Positions 22,977-63,433 of a stretch of DNA of 64,000 nt are shown piece by piece. A program made the position numbers and the translations under genes. Positions within the stretch are counted from its first letter, which is position 1. Every line of letters begins with the position of its first letter. The DNA is taken from positions 1 to 64,000 of the forward strand of contig JALCBR010000013.1 in NCBI GenBank assembly GCA_028066245.1, written 5' to 3'. Source of the stretch: Pirellulales bacterium (lineage in GTDB: Bacteria; Planctomycetota; Planctomycetia; Pirellulales; S012-138). Below the pieces are notes generated by a model. That model saw nothing but the letters and a program-made list of their open reading frames with translations. It searched no databases and was not told the DNA's origin.

Positions 22977-24053
22977 CTACGCGGCGTTTGTCAAGGTTTT
23001 TCCCTTGAGTTCATAAACATAGCGGAGGATTTCGGCCACGGACGCGTAGTGATCCGCGGGAATCGGCTGATTGACTTCCACGTTGTGGTACAGCGCTTGG
23101 GCCAGTGGTTTCCGCTCGAGCACGGGAATTTGGTGCTCAAGCGCAATCCGGCGGATGCGTTCAGCCATGCTGCCTTGCCCCTTGGCGACGATGATTGGTG
23201 CGTTCATCGTCATGGGCTCATATTGAATGGCTACAGCCAAGTGCGTGGGGTTGGTGACCACCACGTCCGCCTTGGGAACGTCTTGCCCGAGCCGATTGAG
23301 CACGAGTTGTCGTTGAACCTGCTTACGGCGTGCCGCAACCTGCGGGTCACCTTGCAGGTTCTTCATTTCGTCGCGAACTTCCTGGGTGGTCATTTTCAAG
23401 TCGCGGTCGTGTTTCCAGCGTTGGTACCAATAATCGAGGATGGCCAACAGCATCAAAGCCGCCGCGATCTTGACGGCCGTCCAGAACAAGATATCCAGTA
23501 GGAAAATGCCGACTTCCACTGGAGACCATTCCGGAACTAGCAACATCTCGCCGCGACGGGCATAAATACTCAAAAAGGCTACTCCGGCCACGATTAAGAT
23601 CTTGAAAATACCGAAGCCGAGCCTCATGACTCCGGAGAGCGAGAATACTCGCGTGAAGCCCTTGATGGGGTTAATTCGCGAGAGGTCTGGCGCAATCCGG
23701 CTGGGTGTAAACAACAATCCTGTCTGGCCCACGTTGAGCAGAATCGCTGCGCCCAACATCAAACTCAGCAGCGGCAACAAATCCCTGGTCAGCCTGTCCA
23801 GGATTGACTGAGACTGCTGGGCAAACTCTTCTTGACCATAGATTGGCGAAGGAAGTTCGCTCAACTGTGTCGTCATGAACTGAGCGAGTGAATCGAACAA
23901 CCCTGCGGAAAGGCCATAGATGATGAGCAGCCCACCGAGCAAGACGCCGGCTGAGCTGAGATCCATGCTCTTGACGACCTGCCCTTTCTCACGGGCTTGT
24001 TGCCGGCGATGCGGAGTCGCTTCGTGCGTTTTGTCGCCGAACTGCTCTGGCAT
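22977..24053 (-). CDS. flhB: Flagellar export apparatus switch protein FlhB
   Basis: Membrane component of the flagellar type III export gate that switches substrate specificity after self-cleavage. It is 358 aa. The N-terminal basic segment (KTHEATPHRRQQAREKGQV) is typical. There are four membrane helices in the first 220 residues. The autocleavage motif is intact in ADVVVTNPTHLAVAIQYEP (NPTH), followed by RKPLAQALYHNVEVNQPIP. It is the last gene of the cluster, 31 bp after fliR. Confidence 0.95.
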   Translation of the reverse strand: MPEQFGDKTHEATPHRRQQAREKGQVVKSMDLSSAGVLLGGLLIIYGLSAGLFDSLAQFMTTQLSELPSPIYGQEEFAQQSQSILDRLTRDLLPLLSLMLGAAILLNVGQTGLLFTPSRIAPDLSRINPIKGFTRVFSLSGVMRLGFGIFKILIVAGVAFLSIYARRGEMLLVPEWSPVEVGIFLLDILFWTAVKIAAALMLLAILDYWYQRWKHDRDLKMTTQEVRDEMKNLQGDPQVAARRKQVQRQLVLNRLGQDVPKADVVVTNPTHLAVAIQYEPMTMNAPIIVAKGQGSMAERIRRIALEHQIPVLERKPLAQALYHNVEVNQPIPADHYASVAEILRYVYELKGKTLTNAA

Positions 24054-24084
24054 GGGTTAGTAGCACACGGGTTGCGGCGTTTCA

Positions 24085-24930
24085 CTAAGCGGAACCGGCT
24101 GCGCCCGTCGCAGGCAAGACCGCCGCAGAGACACTTTGCACGATGTCGATCACGACAGGTTCGATGTCGTCTTGAAAAACGTAGCCGACCACGCCCAGTG
24201 TTAGCGAAATCATCGCCAACGCAGCCATGGAGTTGAGACTGAAACCGACGGCGATGATGTTCAATTGTGGAAGCGTGCGGCTGATCAAACCCATCACCAA
24301 CGTTGACAATAACAGTGCCGCCACGACCGGCCCCGCGATGCGGATTCCCAATTCTAAGCTGTGAGACACCAGCGCAGATAGCGTCTCTTGAATGATTGCG
24401 AAATCCAGCATGCTCCCCGGCGGCACGGCCGAGAATGTCGCTAGAAAACCCTCCATAGCAATGCGATGCCCTCCCGCGAGCAACCAAATTGCCAGCCCGA
24501 ACAAGTAGAGGAACTGTGCTGCCAGTGGAATGCTGTCACCCAATTGCGGATTGAAGACGTTGGCCAACGCCATACCGCTTGACTGACCGATGATCTGCCC
24601 CGCGATTTGCAACGCGGAGAACATGATCCAGATCCCCAGGCTGAGCACGTAGCCCACGGCGATTTCTGTCCCCGCATAGGTCAGGAAGTCAAGCAGCGTG
24701 TTTGGGACGGGCGCGTTGACGGAGAGTTGTATCGGCAAGATCAAGATCGTTAGAGCGACCGCAAACAGGGCTCGTAGCCGCATTGGCACGTCGCGAGATC
24801 CGTACATCGGTCCGATCATCACCAGCCCGGATGTTCGTGCCAGTAGCATGCCAAAGAGCAAGAGCTTGGCCGGATCAAACAGCTCCAGAACGGATTGCAG
24901 GAATTCAGGCACAATGAAGCCTAGGCACAA
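24085..24930 (-). CDS. fliR: Flagellar biosynthetic protein FliR
   Basis: A 281-aa integral component of the flagellar export gate. Blocks such as ARTSGLVMIGPMYGSRDVPM, RLRALFAVALTILILP, AGQIIGQSSGMALANVFNPQ and FLYLFGLAIWLLAGGHR match the family. The C-terminal spans end in LGVVGYVFQDDIEPVVIDIV. It lies between fliQ (40 bp) and flhB. The start is the first ATG, and an upstream alternative cannot be excluded. Confidence 0.93.
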   Translation of the reverse strand: MCLGFIVPEFLQSVLELFDPAKLLLFGMLLARTSGLVMIGPMYGSRDVPMRLRALFAVALTILILPIQLSVNAPVPNTLLDFLTYAGTEIAVGYVLSLGIWIMFSALQIAGQIIGQSSGMALANVFNPQLGDSIPLAAQFLYLFGLAIWLLAGGHRIAMEGFLATFSAVPPGSMLDFAIIQETLSALVSHSLELGIRIAGPVVAALLLSTLVMGLISRTLPQLNIIAVGFSLNSMAALAMISLTLGVVGYVFQDDIEPVVIDIVQSVSAAVLPATGAAGSA

Positions 24931-24970
24931 TGAACTCAGGCAGATTGATATCGCGCTCTGTCGGCACTCA

Positions 24971-25237
24971 TCACAAGCTGGATGGGATGCCAGAGATCAG
25001 ATCCGAGGTATAGGTGACCATCATTTCGATCAACCATGGGAGTGTCAAAGAAGCCACGACGACCATCAAGACGATCTTGGGAACGAAACTGACTGTCTGT
25101 TCCTGAACTTGCGTCAACGCTTGCACCAAACCAACGAGCAATCCGACAACGAGCCCAGTGATCAGAATCGGGGCCGCCACCATCAAAGCCAGGTTGACAG
25201 CTTCGCGGCCGATATCCACTGCGTGTTGCGGTTCCAT
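24971..25237 (-). CDS. fliQ: Flagellar biosynthetic protein FliQ
   Basis: An 88-aa two-span export gate subunit, the usual length. Sequences such as VNLALMVAAPILITGLVVGLLVGLVQALTQ and QEQTVSFVPKIVLMVVVASL define FliQ. It is flanked by fliP and fliR on the same strand. The alternative-frame ORF 24936..25250 is a shadow. Confidence 0.94.
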   Translation of the reverse strand: MEPQHAVDIGREAVNLALMVAAPILITGLVVGLLVGLVQALTQVQEQTVSFVPKIVLMVVVASLTLPWLIEMMVTYTSDLISGIPSSL

Positions 25238-25310
25238 CCGAAGGCCTCAATGAATCGACAAATTAGAGGTTGCGCGTCGAACGCGCATGCGCGCAGAGTC
25301 AGAGTCTACG

Positions 25311-26330
25311 TCATCCAAAGGGCTCAAAACTCAAGAGCAGCATCTCCACCACCAACCGCCAACCATCAACGAGCACGAACAACAACAACTTGAATGGCAG
25401 CGAGATCAACACCGGCGGCAACATGAGCATGCCCATCGAAATCATCACGCTGGCAACGACCATGTCCAAAATCAAAAACGGCAGGTAGATCTGAAAGCCA
25501 ATCAGGAAGGCCGTCTTGAGTTCACTCAGCATGAAAGCCGGGAGCAGCGCGGACAACGGAACATCCGTTTCGCCTGCTTCTTTGTCCGCGCCGAAGTAAA
25601 CGTAGTTGAGCTCTGTGGATTCGGATTCTCCCTGCGTCTCGTTGAGGTAGTCGAGAAACAAGTGAACATCGGCGGTGTTGCCTGTTCGTTCGATTTGCGC
25701 GGCCATGAAATGCCGGATAGGAATCTGGCCGACTTGCCAGGCTTGGTCTGGGCCCAACGTCCCTTCTGAGTAGGGCGCCACGGCAGAATCATAAACTTGC
25801 GTCCAGACCGGCGCCATGATCGCCAGTGTCACAAACAAAGCTAGCGACGTGATCACCTGCGATGGCGGCAACTGTTGTGTCCCCATTGCCTGACGCAATA
25901 GCCCCAACACAACCAGCACGCGAATGAAGCTGGTGGTCATCATCAACACTGCCGGCGCAAGGCTAACCACAGTCAACAGCAGCATGATCTGCAATGTCGA
26001 ACTCAAGCCTTCCTGACCGAAAGCATCGGTAAGAATCTGTTGCGACTGAACTGCCTCTTCGACCGACTTGCCATCCGCGTCTGAAGTCTCGTTCGCTGAT
26101 TCCAGCGAGAGCGGTTGCTGCTGTCCAAAAGCACTCGGCAATGCCAGGATGATTGCGCCCAGCATCGTCAATGCTGCAAACGCTCTGCGAACGGGACTCC
26201 GCCGCCATCGTTCTTGGATCAATTGCCGCTTCAGCGTATCGCCAGCCCGACCCGACCTGCGGGCTGAGCGGCTTGCTGAACTTGGCTTTGACGTACTCAC
26301 GGAAATCTCTATCACTGCAACGTGTGGCAC
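25311..26330 (-). CDS. fliP: Flagellar biosynthetic protein FliP
   Basis: Pore-forming subunit of the export gate. The FliP body is clear: [20 protein letters not shown] with the [10 protein letters not shown] segment, [20 protein letters not shown], then [20 protein letters not shown]. The 339-aa length exceeds the usual 240-250. The extra part is N-terminal: a basic stretch, then a signal-peptide-like helix ([18 protein letters not shown]) and an acidic linker. The true start is uncertain, because the first ATG lies 56 codons before the MLGAIILAL methionine. It lies between fliO and fliQ. Confidence 0.92.
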
Positions 26331-26357
26331 CTGGTGGCAAAAAAGGCAGCGGAGAAG

Positions 26358-27452
26358 CTAACTCACTGTGCCGCGTTTCGATCGGCCCGACCTGGACCAA
26401 CCGCGAGAGGATTCATTATTGAGTTCTGAAAGAACGTCGCGAAAATTGGCCGACGCACTCCCAGATTTGAGTTCGTGACACATGCCGGTGATTCGTGTGA
26501 CGTCATCGGGATTGTCGATCTCCAGCACCGTTTCGATGCCGCCAGCGGCGACCGAAATCAGCGCCAGCTTGCCACCGCAACGTACTAGGTGCAGTCGGTG
26601 TTTTTTGTCTAACGGCGTTTTGCCTAAGATCTCGAATACATCCGCCGGCAGTCCCCCCACCATGCGCGGTAGTTTCTTACGAACAACCCAAGTGCAAAGC
26701 AGGAACAACCCGATCACAATGGCCAAGCCACTGGCGGTTGGCAGCAAGGAGTCAACCAAGGACGATGCTCCACGATCAGAGATTCCTGTCTCGGTTGCCA
26801 ATTCTGAACGCCCACGGAGAGAACGGTTGGGAGCGTCACTCCAATCGCGAGTTAGCAGCTCCGGGAGCTCTTGTGAGGGTGCTCCTGATGGAAGGTTTGT
26901 TTTGGTCCAGGGCGGATGGGCTCCCGGCTCCGTGGCGTTCGGCGATGCCTGTGCCCGAGACGAAGTGCTTCCCATCAACGACGTTTCGCTCGCAACATCT
27001 TGGCCGTTGATGGCCTGTGGCGATTGGGTTTGGTCAGTATGCGCCGTCTGGGCACTCGTTTCGGACCGGCTAACTTGGGTTGCATGGTTTGCCGAATGTG
27101 GGGCCGCCGTTCGGCTCAGGGCATCGCGCAAATCATTCGCGGGCGAAAGATCGACAGCCACGTTCGTCACCGGCACATCACTGTCAACTTTCGATACGGC
27201 TTGGCTGTCTTGAGAGTCCTGGCGTTGGCGCTGTTCGCTGCTGGAGTTTAGTGTCTGTTGCCATCCCAGTGGTTGGCGAAGCAGCGGGGTTTGGTGTTCT
27301 GTTGTTTCGGCTGCATTGTCAGCTTCAACGGAGTTTGAAGACAGGTTACCTGCGTCATCCGCTCCGGCGCGAGGGATGGTCAAAGCGCCGATCGCCGCCA
27401 GGACAATGGCCAGCGCAAAGCTCGTTCCGAGTGAGGGGGCTCGAATTGGCAT
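26358..27452 (-). CDS. fliO: Flagellar protein FliO with a long exported linker
   Basis: The C-terminal third is FliO: one membrane span (GLAIVIGLFLLCTWVVRKK), then GLPADVFEILGKTPLDKKHR and LHLVRCGGKLALISVAAGG. The start chosen is MPIRAPSLGTSFALAIVLAA (27452), a signal peptide. The ORF-track start is 30 codons earlier and overlaps fliN. Between signal peptide and membrane span lie about 215 residues of Ser/Thr/Gln/Asn-rich low complexity, giving 364 aa against roughly 100-150 for many FliO proteins. The linker would be periplasmic. FliO helps assemble FliP. Neighbours are fliN (38 bp) and fliP (27 bp). Confidence 0.88.
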   Translation of the reverse strand: MPIRAPSLGTSFALAIVLAAIGALTIPRAGADDAGNLSSNSVEADNAAETTEHQTPLLRQPLGWQQTLNSSSEQRQRQDSQDSQAVSKVDSDVPVTNVAVDLSPANDLRDALSRTAAPHSANHATQVSRSETSAQTAHTDQTQSPQAINGQDVASETSLMGSTSSRAQASPNATEPGAHPPWTKTNLPSGAPSQELPELLTRDWSDAPNRSLRGRSELATETGISDRGASSLVDSLLPTASGLAIVIGLFLLCTWVVRKKLPRMVGGLPADVFEILGKTPLDKKHRLHLVRCGGKLALISVAAGGIETVLEIDNPDDVTRITGMCHELKSGSASANFRDVLSELNNESSRGWSRSGRSKRGTVS

Positions 27453-27490
27453 CCTTGCCAGTTCCGTCGTAGGAAATCGCAGTGAAGAGA

Positions 27491-27952
27491 CTAGCCGGGC
27501 TTTGAACCATCGCCGGCGACCAGCTCCGCGACACGAACACAAAAGTTTTCGTTCAAAACAAGTACTTCACCGCGAGCAATGAGTCGACCGTTGACGAAGA
27601 TCTCAACGGGATCACCCGCAAGTTTGTCCAACGTGACCACTGCGCCCTTGCGAAGCTTGAGGACGTCTTCCAGGTACATGTGCGTGCGGCCCAATTCAAT
27701 CCGCAAGTCCAACTCAACATCGTGGATCAGCTCGAGCGATGCAACTTCCGTGCTGGCGGTTGAAGCCGCCAAGTTGGGCAATTCAAACGCACTGGTAGCA
27801 TCCGCAGCAGGGCTCGTGCCAGGATCTTCCGCCGTGGCCAGTGCGTCTTCCGCCTGCTTCAGCAAATCTTCAATGTCTGAAGCGCTTAGCTCATCCGGAT
27901 TCGCCTTGGGCTGAGTCCCGGCATCATCGGGGGCTTGGGCATCATCCGCCAT
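27491..27952 (-). CDS. fliN: Flagellar motor switch protein FliN
   Basis: A 153-aa C-ring component. The ATG at 27952 ([14 protein letters not shown]) is preferred, and the track start adds 22 residues. The N-terminal half is an acidic, Ala-rich flexible region ([19 protein letters not shown]). The C-terminal half is the SpoA domain: [19 protein letters not shown], then [20 protein letters not shown] and [18 protein letters not shown]. It lies directly behind the fliL-like gene. No fliM is present between them or elsewhere in the window. Confidence 0.93.
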
Positions 27953-28030
27953 GAGGGTCCTTCCGTCGACGTGAGGAACACCAGCGCGCGTCCATGCTGC
28001 GCCTGATTCCTGACCCAACGCCAGCGGTTT

Positions 28031-35473: not shown

Positions 35474-37264
35474 TTAGTCGTTGATCTCGTCAGCCAGTTT
35501 TTCGATGGCTTTCCGTAAGGCTTTGATCTCCTTGTTCAAAGCATCAATCTTATCGGCAAGGTCGCCATCACCATCGCTGGCTCTGCTCGCAGATCGCGGA
35601 GAGAGCAAGTAGCGGCTCCCCGGTGCCAGTCGCAAGCGGTTGAACTGACCGTCCTCCAGTTTGAACCTGCCGTCAAATTCCTTGTCGATCTCAATTCGTT
35701 TACTGCCAGACTTCGGGAGCTCGAACCTAAATTCGCCCTTGGGTTTAAATTTGAAATCGCCATCGCCAGTACCACCAAAGACACGGAAGACGCCCTTGTC
35801 TCCCTGCCTGAATTGGAAGCCATTCTTGCCCTCACCATCAAGGCTGAGATTGCCGTCTTTCGACTTCCAAATCCTGATCTTACCACGAACGTCCTTAGGC
35901 AAATCATGTAGACTATTTTCATCGACGATCCAGGTTTGATCGCCCTTCTTCACCACGATCTTGGCCGGCTTTTCGTTCTGCTTTTCAATTCGCAGTTCGA
36001 TGCGCTCCTCGTCATCGCCATCATCCTGACCCGCAACACGATAGCTAAATGCACGGCGAATCACGTGTTTGTCACGCTTGTCGCCATCGTCATGCGCGTC
36101 ATCGTCATCATCACGGCGGAATTGGAATCTGTGTAACAAGTCGCCCTTGGCATCATCTACTCCAAACATCATTTTGCCGTCTTTGAAGAACTTCACGTGC
36201 TCACGAACTGCTTCAGGCACTTGGTCAAAGTTATCGCCTTTGATTTCATACTTTTTGCCATCAATCACGATCACGTAGCGGGGGTCTTCCCCATCTTTGT
36301 GCGTGAGTTCAATCCGCGTGGCGTATCGCGAAGCGTCACTGGCGTTGTCTTGACCATCCGCAGCATGCGAGTGGATCTTGCGAATGATGCGTTCATGCAG
36401 TTGACCGTCATCCGTGTGAAGCAAAATCTTACGGTCACCATCACCTTGAATGGCGGCTTTAATCTTGCCTTCCAGCTTGATGACTTCGATTTCTTGAGGG
36501 CTGACAATCTTCAACAAGTCGTCAGTCACAACATCACTTGCGATCACACCGGGACGCACAACCTGGAACGAGAGAGATTGGCCAGGCTTCTCCTTGACCT
36601 TATGTAAGATCAAGTCTTCATCGTCATGGAATTGCAGCGCGTGATGGAGGAGTAGGTTGTCACCAACGTGTAAAACTTGTCGCTTGGCTGGCTGAACTTC
36701 CAATTTGACGTCTTCGCCATCACGCACGACATAGGCGTAAACCTGCTTGTCTTTGGTTTCAGTGATCGCCTTGGACAGGGCTTCCGCGTCCGTGACATCT
36801 TTGTCGTCGAATGACACCAATACATCGTGAACTTCAAACCCGGCTTTCGCCGCAGGGGATTCTTCCACAACCTGCTTGACAACAAGTCCGGAACGCTTGA
36901 GCCCCAATTCTTGCTGCTGACTCTCATCGAATTTTTCACAGACCACACCAATCCAGTAGTCATCTCCTGAGAGCGCAACCGCTTGAGCCTTTTCGTCGCT
37001 GATCTCTTCGGTCAGCAAGTCAACTTCCACCTCCATGTCCGCCAATGAGTCTTTCAATATCTTGATGAGTTGTTTTCGCTCAACAGTCTGCTCAACCCTC
37101 TTCTCTTGCTGTGCAACTTCCACGTCCTGCTGAACAGACGTGCTCTCTGATTGCTCGTCAACTTGCGGCGGAGCCGGCGGGCCGTCAAGCTCTTGAGCAC
37201 TTCCCGGAACGGCGAACACCGATAAGGCAATCAATGCCAGCGTGAGTGCGAAGTAACGTTGCAT
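35474..37264 (-). CDS. Exported PDZ protein with a duplicated C-terminal module
   Basis: A 596-aa secreted protein. The ATG at 37264 opens a signal peptide (MQRYFALTLALIALSVFAVP). A coiled, Gln/Glu-rich segment is followed by a PDZ domain at about residues 105-195 (LGLKRSGLVVKQVVEESPAA, then KAGFEVHDVLVSFDDKDVTD). No protease motif is seen. Later, two related units of about 65 residues occur: YATRIELTHKDGEDPRYVIV ... VPEAVREHVKFFKDGK and DEERIELRIEKQNEKPAKIV ... LPKDVRGKIRIWKSKDG, each ending near FQFR. Asp/Lys-rich loops (DDDDDAHDDGDKRDK) and a C-terminal coiled coil follow. It is the third gene after the ECF sigma factor and the anti-sigma-like gene. Confidence 0.75.
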   Translation of the reverse strand: MQRYFALTLALIALSVFAVPGSAQELDGPPAPPQVDEQSESTSVQQDVEVAQQEKRVEQTVERKQLIKILKDSLADMEVEVDLLTEEISDEKAQAVALSGDDYWIGVVCEKFDESQQQELGLKRSGLVVKQVVEESPAAKAGFEVHDVLVSFDDKDVTDAEALSKAITETKDKQVYAYVVRDGEDVKLEVQPAKRQVLHVGDNLLLHHALQFHDDEDLILHKVKEKPGQSLSFQVVRPGVIASDVVTDDLLKIVSPQEIEVIKLEGKIKAAIQGDGDRKILLHTDDGQLHERIIRKIHSHAADGQDNASDASRYATRIELTHKDGEDPRYVIVIDGKKYEIKGDNFDQVPEAVREHVKFFKDGKMMFGVDDAKGDLLHRFQFRRDDDDDAHDDGDKRDKHVIRRAFSYRVAGQDDGDDEERIELRIEKQNEKPAKIVVKKGDQTWIVDENSLHDLPKDVRGKIRIWKSKDGNLSLDGEGKNGFQFRQGDKGVFRVFGGTGDGDFKFKPKGEFRFELPKSGSKRIEIDKEFDGRFKLEDGQFNRLRLAPGSRYLLSPRSASRASDGDGDLADKIDALNKEIKALRKAIEKLADEIND

Positions 37265-37303
37265 AGTTCCGTGTCCTTCATTGATGTTGAACCTGAAGGC
37301 GAT

Positions 37304-37337
37304 GTGAGCTGGATTCACACTGTGAGTGAGCTGGATT
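37304..37337 (-). repeat. Two identical 12-mers upstream of the PDZ gene
   Basis: GTGAGCTGGATT (AATCCAGCTCAC on the coding strand) occurs at 37304-37315 and again at 37326-37337, a 22-bp period or about two helical turns. They lie 40-73 bp before the ATG of the PDZ protein, inside the 217-bp gap after the anti-sigma-like gene. The placement fits paired operator or activator sites, but no known regulator is implied. Confidence 0.5.
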
Positions 37338-37481
37338 GGCACTGCTGCCATCGCAGCTAGCAATTGCTCCACATCGCGAAATTACTGAAACACGCGGGCT
37401 TCACTTTCGATCCGGCAATGAACGCCCAAAACATCCCTTGCTGCGGAAAATTGCCGAAACTCATCAACCCCTGCGCCCGTG

Positions 37482-38627
37482 TTATTGAACATTGTTGCCG
37501 CCAACGTAGCGAACTTGCACCTCATCTACGGGAACGACCGCAAATCTTCCATCTTCCAATCGAACGGTCATCCATTGCGTTTGGGTAGTCACTTCGTGTC
37601 CCGTGCGCCGCAGCTCAGCCAGCGTCTTGGGGTGAACCGGCGGAGGCATTGTTGAGAACCAGTCCTTCATGCTCGGTCCGTCCACAACTGGGAGTTCCAG
37701 TGGGGAAGCCTCCGGATTGGCACCATTACTCGCCAATGAGACAGTCCCCCAGGTGCCACTCCCGCTGACATTGTTGGTATTGGCTGCCAGGCTTTGCATG
37801 GAAGCGTCGTTTTGCTGCGCATTGTCAATATCACTGTTCGTCAAGTTTGTGTTTGCAGGATTCGCAGCCGAATTCGTGCTGTTGGATGTTTGGTGTCCCG
37901 CGTCAACTCTCGAATCGTCCCCTGTTTCTCGAACCGCCAACCCCAACATGAACGCCAGCAGGAAACAGGCTCCCATCGCCGCGACAACACCCACAGGGGA
38001 TTGCCAAACCGGAGCCATGCGGGAAAACGGTTTCGCGGTCGCCGCCGTTTCGTTATCGCCGGGTGCTTTGGAGGCAGCGGTTTTGCTCTCCGCCACTTGC
38101 TGATCCGTTGAGGGATGTACAGGAGTTGGCTTGGCGTCTTCGCGCCGGTTAGGTGAAATCACAAAGTGCTTGATTCGCGCGCGACCATTCAAGCTACTGG
38201 GGTGCCGGCTCTTATCAGCTAAACTGGCAACACGGAATCGGGAAACCGGCGCCGCGCGGTACACGTCCGCCTTGGGCGATAAGTCCGAGGCATGAATGGA
38301 AGCAAAGTCGCTGCCGCCAGCAAGTTCGGCACCAAAGATCCCACCGAAGAGTTGATCTTCCGGTGTGCAGGTCCCACCGGTTGACGTTACATCTGACTGC
38401 CAAGCTTGTGCTTCCAGGAAGGCCAAAGCACAGCGTCGCCAGCCTTGTGGGCGCCGATCCAACTCGACAAGCAGCGATCTGCGCAACGGTTGCGGGACTT
38501 CGTTGTCCACCAGACGATCAATCAAACGCTCCAATTCCGCATCGTCCACATACTGCAGATTGACAGGGATTGCTTGACCATTGCCTGCCTGTCCTTCTGT
38601 CGTCTTGGGTGAGAAGTTTTTGGTCAT
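37482..38627 (-). CDS. Anti-sigma-factor-like transmembrane protein
   Basis: A 381-aa protein. The N-terminal segment (DDAELERLIDRLVDNEVPQP, then LVELDRRPQGWRRCALAFLE) resembles the N-terminal domain of planctomycete anti-sigma-type proteins paired with ECF factors. It lacks the HxxxCxxC zinc motif. One membrane span (VGVVAAMGACFLLAFMLGLA) is at about residues 205-225, followed by an Asn/Ser/Thr-rich exported linker and a small C-terminal domain (MTVRLEDGRFAVVPVDEVQV). The assignment rests on this and on position directly after the sigma factor gene. The start at 38627 is preferred. Confidence 0.65.
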   Translation of the reverse strand: MTKNFSPKTTEGQAGNGQAIPVNLQYVDDAELERLIDRLVDNEVPQPLRRSLLVELDRRPQGWRRCALAFLEAQAWQSDVTSTGGTCTPEDQLFGGIFGAELAGGSDFASIHASDLSPKADVYRAAPVSRFRVASLADKSRHPSSLNGRARIKHFVISPNRREDAKPTPVHPSTDQQVAESKTAASKAPGDNETAATAKPFSRMAPVWQSPVGVVAAMGACFLLAFMLGLAVRETGDDSRVDAGHQTSNSTNSAANPANTNLTNSDIDNAQQNDASMQSLAANTNNVSGSGTWGTVSLASNGANPEASPLELPVVDGPSMKDWFSTMPPPVHPKTLAELRRTGHEVTTQTQWMTVRLEDGRFAVVPVDEVQVRYVGGNNVQ

Positions 38628-38743
38628 GGTACGATCTCGTCCGTTCGGAAATGGATTGTTGCCCAACCGCGGTTTGTTCACTTGGTTTGATCCGGGTCAG
38701 GACTTTGTCATCGTTATCTCTAATGAATTAAATTCATTGGTGA

Positions 38744-39313
38744 TCAAGCCTCCGTGGACGCCACGTCGAGCGCGGCCAATTCCTTCCTTAGACGCCCTCG
38801 CGCGCGATGCAAGCGAGCCTCGACTGCGCTGCAACTCACGTCCAGCGTTTCGGCAATCTTGGCGTAACTCCACCCTTCAGAGTATTTGAACATCAAGATT
38901 TCCGCGTCACGGCGGGGAAGACGATGCAACGCCATGCGAACCATGGCGCGACGCTCGTCCCGCAACAACCAACCAAGTGGATCACCCTCAGTTTGTGATG
39001 CAGAATCTTGACGTTCCGCGTATCGATGAGTCAACTTCCGTGCTCGCCCCATCTTCCTGCGGTAGAGCAAAGCTTGGCGGACGGCAAGTTGGTACAGCCA
39101 GGGAGCCACCTTTGCCGCGTCCTGCAACGGGGCGCTTTGCCGAACGGCGGCTAGCGCGATTTCTTGCATTACCTCATCGACCGCCTGGGCTTCGCCCACG
39201 CGCGCACCCACGATCATCCGCAGCCAGCGCTCGTGGCTGACGAGAACCGCCTGCCAGTCAATCGCTGCTGCGGCATGTCCGTTTGCGGATGCCTCGACCG
39301 TCGGAATTGCCAT
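38744..39313 (-). CDS. RNA polymerase ECF-type sigma factor
   Basis: A 189-aa sigma70-family regulator. Region 2 includes DEVMQEIALAAVRQSAPLQD and VAPWLYQLAVRQALLYRRKM. Region 4 includes LHRLPRRDAEILMFKYSEGW, SYAKIAETLDVS and AVEARLHRARGRLRKEL. No region 3 is present, as expected for ECF factors. It is the first gene of the (-) module with the anti-sigma-like (116 bp) and PDZ genes. Autoregulation from the 448-bp upstream spacer is likely but not shown. Confidence 0.92.
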   Translation of the reverse strand: MAIPTVEASANGHAAAAIDWQAVLVSHERWLRMIVGARVGEAQAVDEVMQEIALAAVRQSAPLQDAAKVAPWLYQLAVRQALLYRRKMGRARKLTHRYAERQDSASQTEGDPLGWLLRDERRAMVRMALHRLPRRDAEILMFKYSEGWSYAKIAETLDVSCSAVEARLHRARGRLRKELAALDVASTEA

Positions 39314-39761
39314 AGCTGTATGATAGTTGCCGCCGTGGGCCAGTCTCTTGCCGGCTCGCGCGAAAATACCCTGAATTTACGGGCAATAACACCCCATCCA
39401 CAAATGATCTGCGGCAAAAACTGCACCGTTCGCGAATGGCGGCATCTTGTGCCATGACTTGGAATCCCATCCTTGGAATTCACGCATTCTCTTGCCAAAA
39501 TCAACAGCCTGGTGGCTTGAACCCGGAGCTTCGCAAAATAACCGCAGGAGATTGATTCCGCTGCCCCGGGAAGATTGACGCCTGGAAACGCCCAAGGGTT
39601 CGTTTTCAAGACGAGCTGTGCACACGCCTGCAAGTAACCCACAAGCTTGAGTGGGCCTCGCATGCGGCTTTGCACATTTGCCAGGCGCGGTGTTCTGGCA
39701 GCCTTGTGGCGGAGCTTCCACTTTGCTCTCAATTCATTCGTTTATTCAAAGCAATCTTTTG
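39314..39761. other. Divergent spacer between sigma factor and amidase genes
   Basis: A 448-bp stretch without a convincing gene. The track ORFs here (39214..39732 -, 39377..39721 -, and the extension of the amidase ORF) lack coding features. It should carry the sigma factor promoter, but no clear -35/-10 pair with consensus was found. Confidence 0.4.
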
Positions 39762-60974: not shown

Positions 60975-61048
60975 GCGCCCGTAGCTCAACTGGATAGAGC
61001 AGCGGACTTCTAATCCGCAGGTTGCAGGTTCGATTCCTGCCGGGCGTA
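60975..61048 (+). tRNA. tRNA-Arg (anticodon UCU)
   Basis: A complete cloverleaf. The acceptor stem GCGCCCG pairs with CGGGCGT (one G-U pair) and is followed by discriminator A. The D-arm is GCTC...GAGC. The anticodon stem GCGGA/TCCGC encloses the loop CTTCTAA with anticodon TCT at 61009-61011, reading AGA. The T-arm is GCAGG TTCGATT CCTGC. No CCA is encoded. The stop codon of the recombinase lies 5 bp downstream on the opposite strand, which is the classical position of an element integrated into a tRNA 3' end. Confidence 0.95.
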
Positions 61049-61053
61049 CTGAT

Positions 61054-62226
61054 CTAGCAATGGGTTACGTCGATTGCCTGTTGGCGAATTTGCTTAGTGG
61101 GACCTGAAATGGGACTTTTGTGCGCATCCTGAGACGCTTTGTACGCATCCCACAGCTGCCCGGCCATCTCATCGGCATCATGCCAGACGTAGAATCGCAA
61201 GCTTGTCTGAATGCTCTTGTGTCGCATCAGACGTTGTAAGACGGCCGGCATCACGCGCTTGCTCCAACGAGTGCCAAAGCTTCGCCGCAGATCGTGCGCT
61301 GATGCTGTCTTGCCGGGTCCCACGAGAACGCCTGCCTTCGAGCCGATCGCTGAGACCTTTCGTCCCGCAGCTTCCGCCGTCTCTACAGGCAACTCAAAAA
61401 CGGCGCCCGTTCGCTCCGCTTCGGGAGTCTCCGCCAAGAACAGAGCAAACTCTGGCGCACAGGGCCATAGCTCGGCTCTTTTGGCCTTCTGACTGCCAGC
61501 GCCGAACTTGAGAAAGGCGCGACCGTCAGGGCGTAAGACAGCTTGCAGCTCCACGTCCGGGTCCCACGAAAGCCGAAACGCTTCCGAGAGCCTGAGACCA
61601 GACCACCACAGTCCAGTGATGAATCGCTGCCAGGTCGCGGCGTCTTTACGGCCACTCTGGACAGACAGCATCCGCTCATACTCTTCGGCGGTGATCGCGC
61701 GCCCTTTCATCGTGTCATTGGACAACTTCGGCGGCGTGACCTTGGGCGTGAAAGTCAACAAACCGAGCGAATACGCCCACCGGAGCGCCGCTTTGATGTG
61801 ACGGCAGTTCATGGCGACCGTCTGATGGGATCTTGTTTTCTTGGTCCGCTCCGACTTCTCGGCTGCCAGCTCGGTAACGAACTTGCTGAGGTTTGCTGGT
61901 GTCAGGTCACGCAAGAACCTGGGCTTGAGGACGCGCTCAAGGTGGTCGAATGCCACGTCGTACGCATCGCACGTCCTCTTTGCTAGTCCGCGCCTGGCTT
62001 CCGCCTCGTGCCGCTGACGGAATTCATCCCACTTGATCGCATCTGGTGCGCAGCCGGCCCGGAGTTCCTTTTCCAGCTTGGCCGCGGCTCGCTCGGCTTC
62101 ACGACGGTTGACCGTCTTGGCTGATCGTTTGCGCACCTGACCTATGGAAGGATCAGTCCACCGCAGTTGCAGGAACTTACGCCCCTTCTCTGCGAGGACA
62201 TGGACATTGAGTTGGGTTGGAATCAT
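61054..62226 (-). CDS. Tyrosine recombinase (integrase) of a tRNA-associated element
   Basis: A 390-aa integrase. The N-terminal part has a SAM-like DNA-binding core (YDVAFDHLERVLKPRFLRDL, TPANLSKFVTELAAE). The catalytic domain shows the first Arg in GLWWSGLRLSEAFRLSW, then AHDLRRSFGTRW (HxxR), and the nucleophile Tyr in RHKSIQTSLRFYVWHD. The stop codon is 5 bp from the 3' end of tRNA-Arg, so it probably catalysed integration there. It is the last of a (-) run, 8 bp after the MltR-like gene. An AGGAA precedes the ATG at 62226. Confidence 0.92.
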   Translation of the reverse strand: MIPTQLNVHVLAEKGRKFLQLRWTDPSIGQVRKRSAKTVNRREAERAAAKLEKELRAGCAPDAIKWDEFRQRHEAEARRGLAKRTCDAYDVAFDHLERVLKPRFLRDLTPANLSKFVTELAAEKSERTKKTRSHQTVAMNCRHIKAALRWAYSLGLLTFTPKVTPPKLSNDTMKGRAITAEEYERMLSVQSGRKDAATWQRFITGLWWSGLRLSEAFRLSWDPDVELQAVLRPDGRAFLKFGAGSQKAKRAELWPCAPEFALFLAETPEAERTGAVFELPVETAEAAGRKVSAIGSKAGVLVGPGKTASAHDLRRSFGTRWSKRVMPAVLQRLMRHKSIQTSLRFYVWHDADEMAGQLWDAYKASQDAHKSPISGPTKQIRQQAIDVTHC

Positions 62227-62234
62227 TTGCGTTC

Positions 62235-62726
62235 CTATTCTGAAGATGTGCTGACAACCGGCGGAAACGCATCAACATCCGTCGGCTTCGGCTCCGCGAG
62301 AACCTGGGGAGTTGGTGGTACGGTGCGGCGCGACAACCGGGCCACAAGCGCGCAAGTGACGTACAGAAGACGTTCAAGCGGCAACTTAAGTTCATCGTGC
62401 ATACGCAGCGAGTCTGCGTATATCTTCCACGTGTGAAGACCGTCAATAGCTTGTTGGTCATCGTCATCAAACCCGTCTGCTCTGAAGTCGTGAGCGCACC
62501 GATTTCGAATCTTGCGAATTGCGTGAAGGTCATCCTTCTCGTTTGCGGTAACCAAGCCAACGTCGTATGCCCTGTTGATCCGACCGAAGAAATCCTTGTT
62601 CTCCCCGGTGAGTTTGCCCAGCCGTTCGTCGAAGTACGCGGCTGCAACTATCGCTGCAACGCGTTCACCATGTCCTTCGAGAAACTTGGAAATCTCCACT
62701 AGATTTTCGTCTCCGGTAAATTTCAT
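62235..62726 (-). CDS. MltR-like protein
   Basis: A 163-aa protein. The ATG at 62726 (MKFTGDENLVEISKFLEGHG) is chosen because GGAGAG lies 7 bp upstream, while ATGs further up lack a ribosome-binding site. The body IVAAAYFDERLGKLTGENKD, FGRINRAYDVGLVTANEKDD and LHAIRKIRNRCAHDF resembles the mannitol repressor MltR domain, whose members in mobile elements are not tied to mannitol. No DNA-binding motif is seen. Its role in the element is unknown. It lies between the integrase and the HTH-receiver gene. Confidence 0.7.
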   Translation of the reverse strand: MKFTGDENLVEISKFLEGHGERVAAIVAAAYFDERLGKLTGENKDFFGRINRAYDVGLVTANEKDDLHAIRKIRNRCAHDFRADGFDDDDQQAIDGLHTWKIYADSLRMHDELKLPLERLLYVTCALVARLSRRTVPPTPQVLAEPKPTDVDAFPPVVSTSSE

Positions 62727-62884
62727 TGCTTCTCTCCAGGCTGGTGTCATGTGTCGCGTTTTCATCTTGCAAAGCATGCCCGCGGAGTTGCAACCCCGCA
62801 GGCAGTTTTCGTGGTCGTGGCATGGTTACCTCCCAGGGTTAAAGGTGTGTCCCATCTGAGTCAGCACTTGGTGAACGGTGACGG

Positions 62885-63433
62885 CTACGGTCGTTGTGAT
62901 GATGGCTTTCCTTGTTGCGCTCGTTCGACGCTTCGCGTGACGTACTGGGCCAGCCTCTTCGCTAGCCGTTCTGGATCGGCGGCGTCCAGCGTGATGGGTT
63001 TCACCGGGACAACGACCGGCTTCCATTGGGCGAACGCAAGGATTTGTTCAACCACCAAGACCACTTCCGGCCAGGTCTCATCGACCAGCACAACCAGCGG
63101 CGGAAACTGTCGTAGCGTCACGCCAGCTTCAAAGTCCGTCGCGGCTCTGTGCAGAGAAATTCCATCAGGCAGATGAACCTGAATCGCCTCGGCGAAGCCT
63201 GACTGCTGCGTCAGCATCAGGACGTCGGGGCTTTCTACTTCCACAGCGCCGGCAAACGGAATGCCCCGCTCACGTAGGAACGCGTGCACGTCACACCGGC
63301 GGAAGCGGTAGGGGTGGCCGGTCTTTGGTTTCCATGCGCGAAGCTTTCCCGACTTGGCCCAACTCTGGACGGTTCCCCAAGCAACGCACGCCATGCGTTG
63401 CACGTCGGCAGGCATCAGAACGTCTTCGTTCAT
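62885..63433 (-). CDS. Excisionase-type HTH protein with receiver-like C-terminus
   Basis: A 182-aa protein. Residues 1-55 (LMPADVQRMACVAWGTVQSW, SKGKL-like turn, GHPYRFRRCDVHAFLRERG) form a MerR/excisionase-like winged helix-turn-helix. Residues 67-170 look like a receiver domain: SPDVLMLTQQSGFAEAIQVH, then FPPLVVLVDETWPEV with an Asp where the phosphoacceptor would stand, and VVVPVKPITL with a KP pair. The acidic pocket residues of true receivers are replaced by TQQ, so phosphorylation is doubtful. It overlaps the upstream recombinase gene by 4 bp (ATGA). Confidence 0.75.
   Translation of the reverse strand: MNEDVLMPADVQRMACVAWGTVQSWAKSGKLRAWKPKTGHPYRFRRCDVHAFLRERGIPFAGAVEVESPDVLMLTQQSGFAEAIQVHLPDGISLHRAATDFEAGVTLRQFPPLVVLVDETWPEVVLVVEQILAFAQWKPVVVPVKPITLDAADPERLAKRLAQYVTRSVERAQQGKPSSQRP

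Follow-up and report, generated by a model that had tools for sequence, protein, structure and literature searches.

The locus at positions 35474-39313 on the (-) strand of this window raises the question of why an exported PDZ protein without a protease domain should be encoded beside a sigma factor and a membrane protein. The window is the whole stretch of 64,000 nucleotides analysed, positions 1-64,000 of the forward strand of contig JALCBR010000013.1 (GCA_028066245.1) from a Pirellulales bacterium. The locus contains three open reading frames (ORFs), encoding in order an extracytoplasmic function (ECF)-type sigma factor, a single-pass membrane protein and an exported PDZ protein. This is the order given by the original prediction, which had been made from the sequence and is borne out by the ORF positions. 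The answer favoured here, with a probability of about 0.55, is a self-contained envelope circuit resembling that of RseA/RseB, in which the PDZ protein would bind the tail of the anti-sigma factor and would also be the main product. The three genes are as follows.

38744-39313, (-) strand: ECF-type sigma factor of 189 amino acids (Pfam Sigma70_r4_2 and Sigma70_r2; NCBIfam TIGR02937; PDB relatives).
37482-38627 from its ATG, (-) strand: single-pass membrane protein of 381 amino acids, probable zinc-less anti-sigma factor (second gene in 57/57 loci; structure model; weak anti-sigma matches of orthologues).
35474-37264, (-) strand: exported PDZ protein without a protease domain, 596 amino acids, relatives mostly 300-480 (Pfam PDZ_2).

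The grouping of these genes is not due to chance, as their order is the same at all 57 intact loci and at 71 of the 73 from a second collection. The membrane protein was searched for in 98 relatives and was present in 63, with 60 loci retrieved. Every one of the 57 loci not cut by contig ends, including that of the window (Pirellulales), carries the sigma, membrane-protein and PDZ genes in the same order and on the same strand. The second collection retains the three genes in 71 of its 73 complete loci, including Isosphaeraceae, and covers cultured Singulisphaera, Tautonia, Bythopirellula and Lacipirellula strains. The two genome collections partly overlap and their counts are not to be summed. 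Within the order, a profile search matched 149 of 247 genomes, some of the matches being weak and falling on other proteins. A further family group within the class also gave matches, with no clear ones elsewhere in the phylum. The order is kept in 15 of 20 more distant loci; the remaining five consist of one cut by a contig end, one with a broken front part and three without PDZ. There is no conserved fourth gene at the module, which was followed as a fixed unit across about twenty planctomycete families. The original prediction had proposed this comparison with other planctomycetes and named a lack of conservation as its refutation; the three genes are strongly co-conserved. The tree-likeness of the three proteins (r 0.51-0.64) has no species-tree control and is not used as evidence.

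The predicted identity of the first gene holds. The sigma factor scores 63.5 bits against the NCBIfam sigma70-ECF model TIGR02937 (cut-off 42.9) and matches Pfam Sigma70_r4_2 above cut-off (E 2.7e-15). The match to Sigma70_r2, at 23.8 bits, is slightly below the 24-bit cut-off. Regions 2 and 4 only are present, together with a superfamily model above cut-off, as is characteristic of ECF (group IV sigma70) factors, and the PDB relatives are ECF sigma factors. The top-scoring named subfamily is NCBIfam TIGR02989 Sig-70_gvs1 (Rhodopirellula/Verrucomicrobium) with 78.6 bits. However, this is far below its cut-off of 124.55 bits and the sigma factor is not a member.

Comparison of the upstream regions, also proposed in advance, showed the sigma gene to be preceded by a clear promoter-like element.

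39325-39351, (-) strand: promoter-like GCAAGA-N15-GCAACT, -35-like block at 39351-39346 and -10-like block at 39330-39325; candidate autoregulated promoter (motif search).

A two-block motif search of the 300 bases upstream of the sigma gene in 57 loci returned GCAAGA-N14/15-G(C/T)AACT, with a log-likelihood of 358 versus about 50 in shuffled sequence. The element lies above threshold in 51 of the 57 loci (spacer 14 in 35, spacer 15 in 16). Its first base is usually 33-45 bases ahead of the sigma start codon. The protein recognising it is presumably the sigma factor itself. The only other recurrent non-coding site of the element is before the PDZ gene. In one genome (G023) a second, perfect copy is found there with a score of 14.4 (null maximum 9.5) and the sigma copy is retained. 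In another (G089) the second copy scores 10.3 and has the same lineage-specific variant as the genome's own sigma promoter. The PDZ protein is favoured as at least an output because of these two copies. A site before the PDZ gene of the window, at about 37450-37476, has a weak score of 6.7 (per-locus p 0.02). The first motif run also suggested a motif ahead of the PDZ gene, which was rejected because its sequence belonged to the end of the membrane-protein coding region.

A search of the window's own genome with a relaxed motif gave six sites versus four in the control, mostly within genes. Across 98 genomes the surplus lay mainly at the sigma locus and at one recurrent coding match, with little elsewhere, and no regulon is claimed. 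With no clear regulon beyond it, the operon itself stands out as the target. The simplest reading is that the operon would be autoregulated, with the PDZ protein as the main product. Autoregulation is common, though not obligatory, among ECF sigma factors. A copy of the element was also observed in the own genome at C83:15579-15604 (L156), 23 bases before the ATG of a kinase-like ORF of 492 amino acids. This ORF is a possible second target; the element there is not above chance genome-wide.

The second gene product contains the following parts.

38349-38543, (-) strand: anti-sigma-like helical domain, residues 29-93, signature LDRLVDGEL..ERR.LL..L...P.GWRRCALAFLEAQ (orthologue alignment; model).
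37923-37997, (-) strand: transmembrane helix, residues 211-235, hydrophobic sequence VGVVAAMGACFLLAFMLGLAV (model and hydrophobicity).
37506-37745, (-) strand: extracytoplasmic alpha/beta domain, residues 295-374, signature GH.V...R...PV.L.DGR..VVPVD.VE (orthologue consensus; model).
37485-37505, (-) strand: conserved free C-terminal tail, residues 375-381, here VGGNNVQ (orthologue comparison; most relatives end in [YF]Q, Y, H or L).

In the model, the anti-sigma-like domain forms helices at residues 29-40, 46-58, 62-83 and 89-93, and the outer alpha/beta domain stops shortly before the C-terminus. Class I anti-sigma domains comprise an N-terminal bundle of three helices and a fourth helix, which the four modelled helices may represent. 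The zinc motif HxxxCxxC is absent from all 57 orthologues, that of the window included, which agrees with the prediction of an anti-sigma-like N-terminus without zinc. The motif occurs in about half of the class I anti-sigma (ASDI) family and zinc is not obligatory (PMC7406223). The membrane protein of the window has no family match in Pfam or NCBIfam, and a profile search against solved structures found nothing significant. Among 51 orthologues, 16 show a weak match to zf-HC2 and eight a weak match to an NCBIfam anti-sigma model (best 4.6e-5). Foldseek aligned the N-terminal domain with the RskA anti-sigma domain 4nqw_B (TMt 0.50, E 1.5), which alone is not significant. A profile-profile comparison against five zinc-type domains encoded in this genome aligned the corresponding positions at a low probability of 11 %. 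As in class I anti-sigma factors, the gene adjoins its ECF sigma gene, in 57 of 57 loci. These weak matches combined, the invariant place beside the ECF gene and the frequent overlap of the two genes by 4 nucleotides in the loci compared make a role as a zinc-less anti-sigma factor likely. Among solved structures, the outer domain recurrently gave weak matches to reaction-centre H chains (E about 1.2). At L198, L199, L201, L202 and L203, homologues of the anti-sigma-like domain are fused to long, differing outer parts (457-638 amino acids); judged by sequence, these are related anti-sigma-type proteins with other putative sensors.

The third gene product was predicted to be a secreted PDZ protein without a protease domain, and this description stands.

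36680-36964, (-) strand: HtrA-type PDZ domain, residues 101-195 (model; Foldseek matches to the PDZ domains of HtrA, DegS and MucD).
36944-36958, (-) strand: carboxylate-binding loop YWIGV, residues 103-107 (loop conservation).
35840-36058, (-) strand: conserved C-terminal beta segment, residues 403-475, signature PAKI.V..GD..W.VTE..L..LP.DVR (orthologue consensus; model).
35480-35569, (-) strand: C-terminal coiled-coil-like helix, residues 566-595 (model).

The window protein matches Pfam PDZ_2 with an E value of 1.3e-14, and the family is present in all 51 members scanned. No protease family was found in these 51 members, the trypsin-like HtrA protease domain included. The carboxylate-binding loop, typical of HtrA-type PDZ domains, is conserved as YW[IL]G[VI] in relatives. 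Only PDZ families were matched consistently and no RseB/MucB fold was found in the exported partner. The longest frame begins further upstream at GTG 37372; the probable start is ATG 37264, which gives an N-terminus with the better fit to a signal peptide. The window protein exceeds its relatives in length. An internal match makes residues of about 320-390 look like a second diverged copy of the C-terminal beta segment, so that about 320-475 seemingly hold two copies.

The membrane protein and the PDZ protein may be linked through the tail, which is conserved despite lying past the final strand of the model. An aromatic residue is found in the last two positions of the membrane protein in 46 of 57 loci, versus none for the sigma factor and one for the PDZ protein. 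A terminal Q or H is found in 38 of 57, four and five, respectively. Where a PDZ gene is adjacent, the outer domain is present in 152 of 156 loci and the aromatic tail in 113 of 156. Among the 11 loci where no PDZ gene is adjacent, seven are without the full outer domain, and none of these seven has the aromatic tail. The other four retain the outer domain and all end in P, without an aromatic tail. These counts (156 and 11 loci) include genomes present in both collections. The conserved tail and the intact carboxylate loop make the PDZ protein plausible also as an input partner. The original prediction of an envelope-sensing circuit, with the PDZ protein as either input sensor or main output, is thus supported, with the caveat that the two roles are not exclusive.

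The favoured RseA/RseB-like circuit would operate as follows. The ECF sigma factor would transcribe its own operon from GCAAGA-N14/15-GYAACT. The anti-sigma factor, of the zinc-less class I type, would retain the sigma factor at the inner membrane face via its N-terminal helices and extend outside with a small domain and the conserved free tail. The PDZ protein would be a dedicated partner whose PDZ domain most likely grips the tail, leaving the anti-sigma factor protected or cleavable. Once envelope ligands fill the PDZ protein, the tail would be freed and the anti-sigma factor destroyed by general HtrA-type and M50 proteases. The own genome encodes several separate proteases of both types, none linked to the module, which could carry out this cleavage. 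The freed sigma factor would then raise all three products, and the PDZ protein, as the main one, would close a homeostatic loop. The gene order, the domains, the promoter-like element and the conservation of tail and loop are observed; the binding of sigma to anti-sigma factor and of PDZ domain to tail, the direction of the effect, the proteolysis and the signal are inferred. A more specific form of the circuit is put forward tentatively. The anti-sigma tail would sit in the groove of the protease-free PDZ domain, envelope C-termini, for example from unfolded outer-membrane proteins, would compete for the groove, and the PDZ protein would be sensor, co-inhibitor and chief product at once.

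Several observations weigh against the favoured circuit. The anti-sigma assignment leans on weak matches, such as the 11 % of the profile-profile comparison and the E value of 1.5 for the RskA fold, and most genomes have no separate copy of the element before the PDZ gene. The window tail ends in VQ, without an aromatic residue, and is not of the commonest type. A terminal Q or H is itself unusual for a PDZ ligand. The loci with an outer domain and no adjacent PDZ gene number only four and may not be independent. In two of them (L197 5000-5584 and L200 4662-5396) the third gene encodes a small exported protein that has no PDZ but carries an LP.DVR-like motif and, at its C-terminus, a coiled coil; the membrane proteins of these two loci terminate in P. 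The PDZ domain is not indispensable, as these loci keep a secreted third protein without it. The LP.DVR/coiled-coil end, being retained in both, may be the older part of the third protein.

The PDZ protein could instead be an output only, an envelope chaperone or adaptor without contact to the anti-sigma factor, which would sense via its own outer domain. This would fit the sigma-type promoter copy directly before the PDZ gene in two genomes, the distal position of this gene in the autoregulated operon throughout, and the common binding of unfolded outer-membrane proteins by HtrA-type PDZ domains. For a mere target, one would not expect the PDZ gene to be tied so strictly, one to one, to the outer domain, nor the free tail to be conserved, nor tail type and PDZ to be lost together, and a role confined to output is doubtful. 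The PDZ protein might also act as an adaptor that brings the anti-sigma tail to a general HtrA-type protease and promotes cleavage: its PDZ domain has its closest counterparts in HtrA, DegS and MucD, it carries no protease itself, and the genome encodes several separate HtrA-type and M50 proteases. Such an activator is unlikely, as in an autoregulated operon it would amount to positive feedback without a brake, and no protease is linked to the module through a conserved fourth gene.

A further alternative concerns the element, which could be a direct-repeat operator of another regulator rather than the promoter of this sigma factor. Its two halves resemble each other (GCAAGA and GCAACT) and are separated by about two turns of the helix. 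However, the spacer varies by one base (14 in 35 loci, 15 in 16), as is promoter-like and rare in operators. In 51 of 57 loci the element also lies on the operon strand immediately ahead of the sigma gene; elsewhere in non-coding sequence it was seen to recur only before the PDZ gene. An operator is unlikely.

The favoured circuit resembles E. coli sigma-E/RseA/RseB (rpoE-rseA-rseB) and Pseudomonas AlgU/MucA/MucB/MucD in the order of ECF sigma factor, membrane anti-sigma factor and exported partner, and in the zinc-less anti-sigma domain. It differs in that the exported partner is a protease-free PDZ protein without an RseB-type match, the anti-sigma factor itself bears the conserved C-terminal tail, and the outer domains showed no relation in sequence. 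The circuit likely departs from RseA/RseB logic in having its anti-sigma tail recognised by a PDZ protein that lacks a protease. In the sigma-E-type circuit, sensing includes the recognition of C-terminal peptides by a PDZ domain, that of DegS (PMC8103513). The PDZ domain shares its bacterial type and carboxylate-binding loop with those of HtrA, DegS and MucD, but the protein lacks a protease domain and has an extra C-terminal beta segment and coiled coil. M. tuberculosis RskA/SigK and other zinc-less class I anti-sigma factors likewise have a short helical N-terminus without HxxxCxxC, one membrane helix and an outer domain, RskA being the structural match in 4nqw (E 1.5). Sequence similarity to RskA is below significance and the outer domain differs. 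No PDZ partner is known for these anti-sigma factors. A literature search found no earlier description of the three-gene module, though an earlier mention elsewhere is possible.

Planctomycete envelopes are unusual, and these bacteria encode very many ECF sigma factors that await characterisation. The module makes a tractable starting point for studying how the phylum senses envelope stress, as it can be tracked with its promoter-like element as a fixed unit across about twenty families. It is carried by cultured species such as Singulisphaera acidiphila and Lacipirellula limnantheis. If the PDZ protein does hold the tail, functions joined in DegS would be split between separate proteins, giving a new coupling of peptide recognition to a sigma factor.

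Elsewhere in the window, genes resembling those for flagellar or type III export (FlhB-, FliR-, FliP- and FliN-like by eye) lie in a row at 22977-28018 on the (-) strand. Five bases separate the end of an integrase-like gene (61054-62226, (-) strand) from a tRNA-Arg(tct) gene at 60975-61049. Beyond the integrase-like gene, at 62235-63433, are small genes and a helix-turn-helix-like ORF. The integrase/tRNA-Arg region (60975-62226) is probably the edge of an integrated mobile element.

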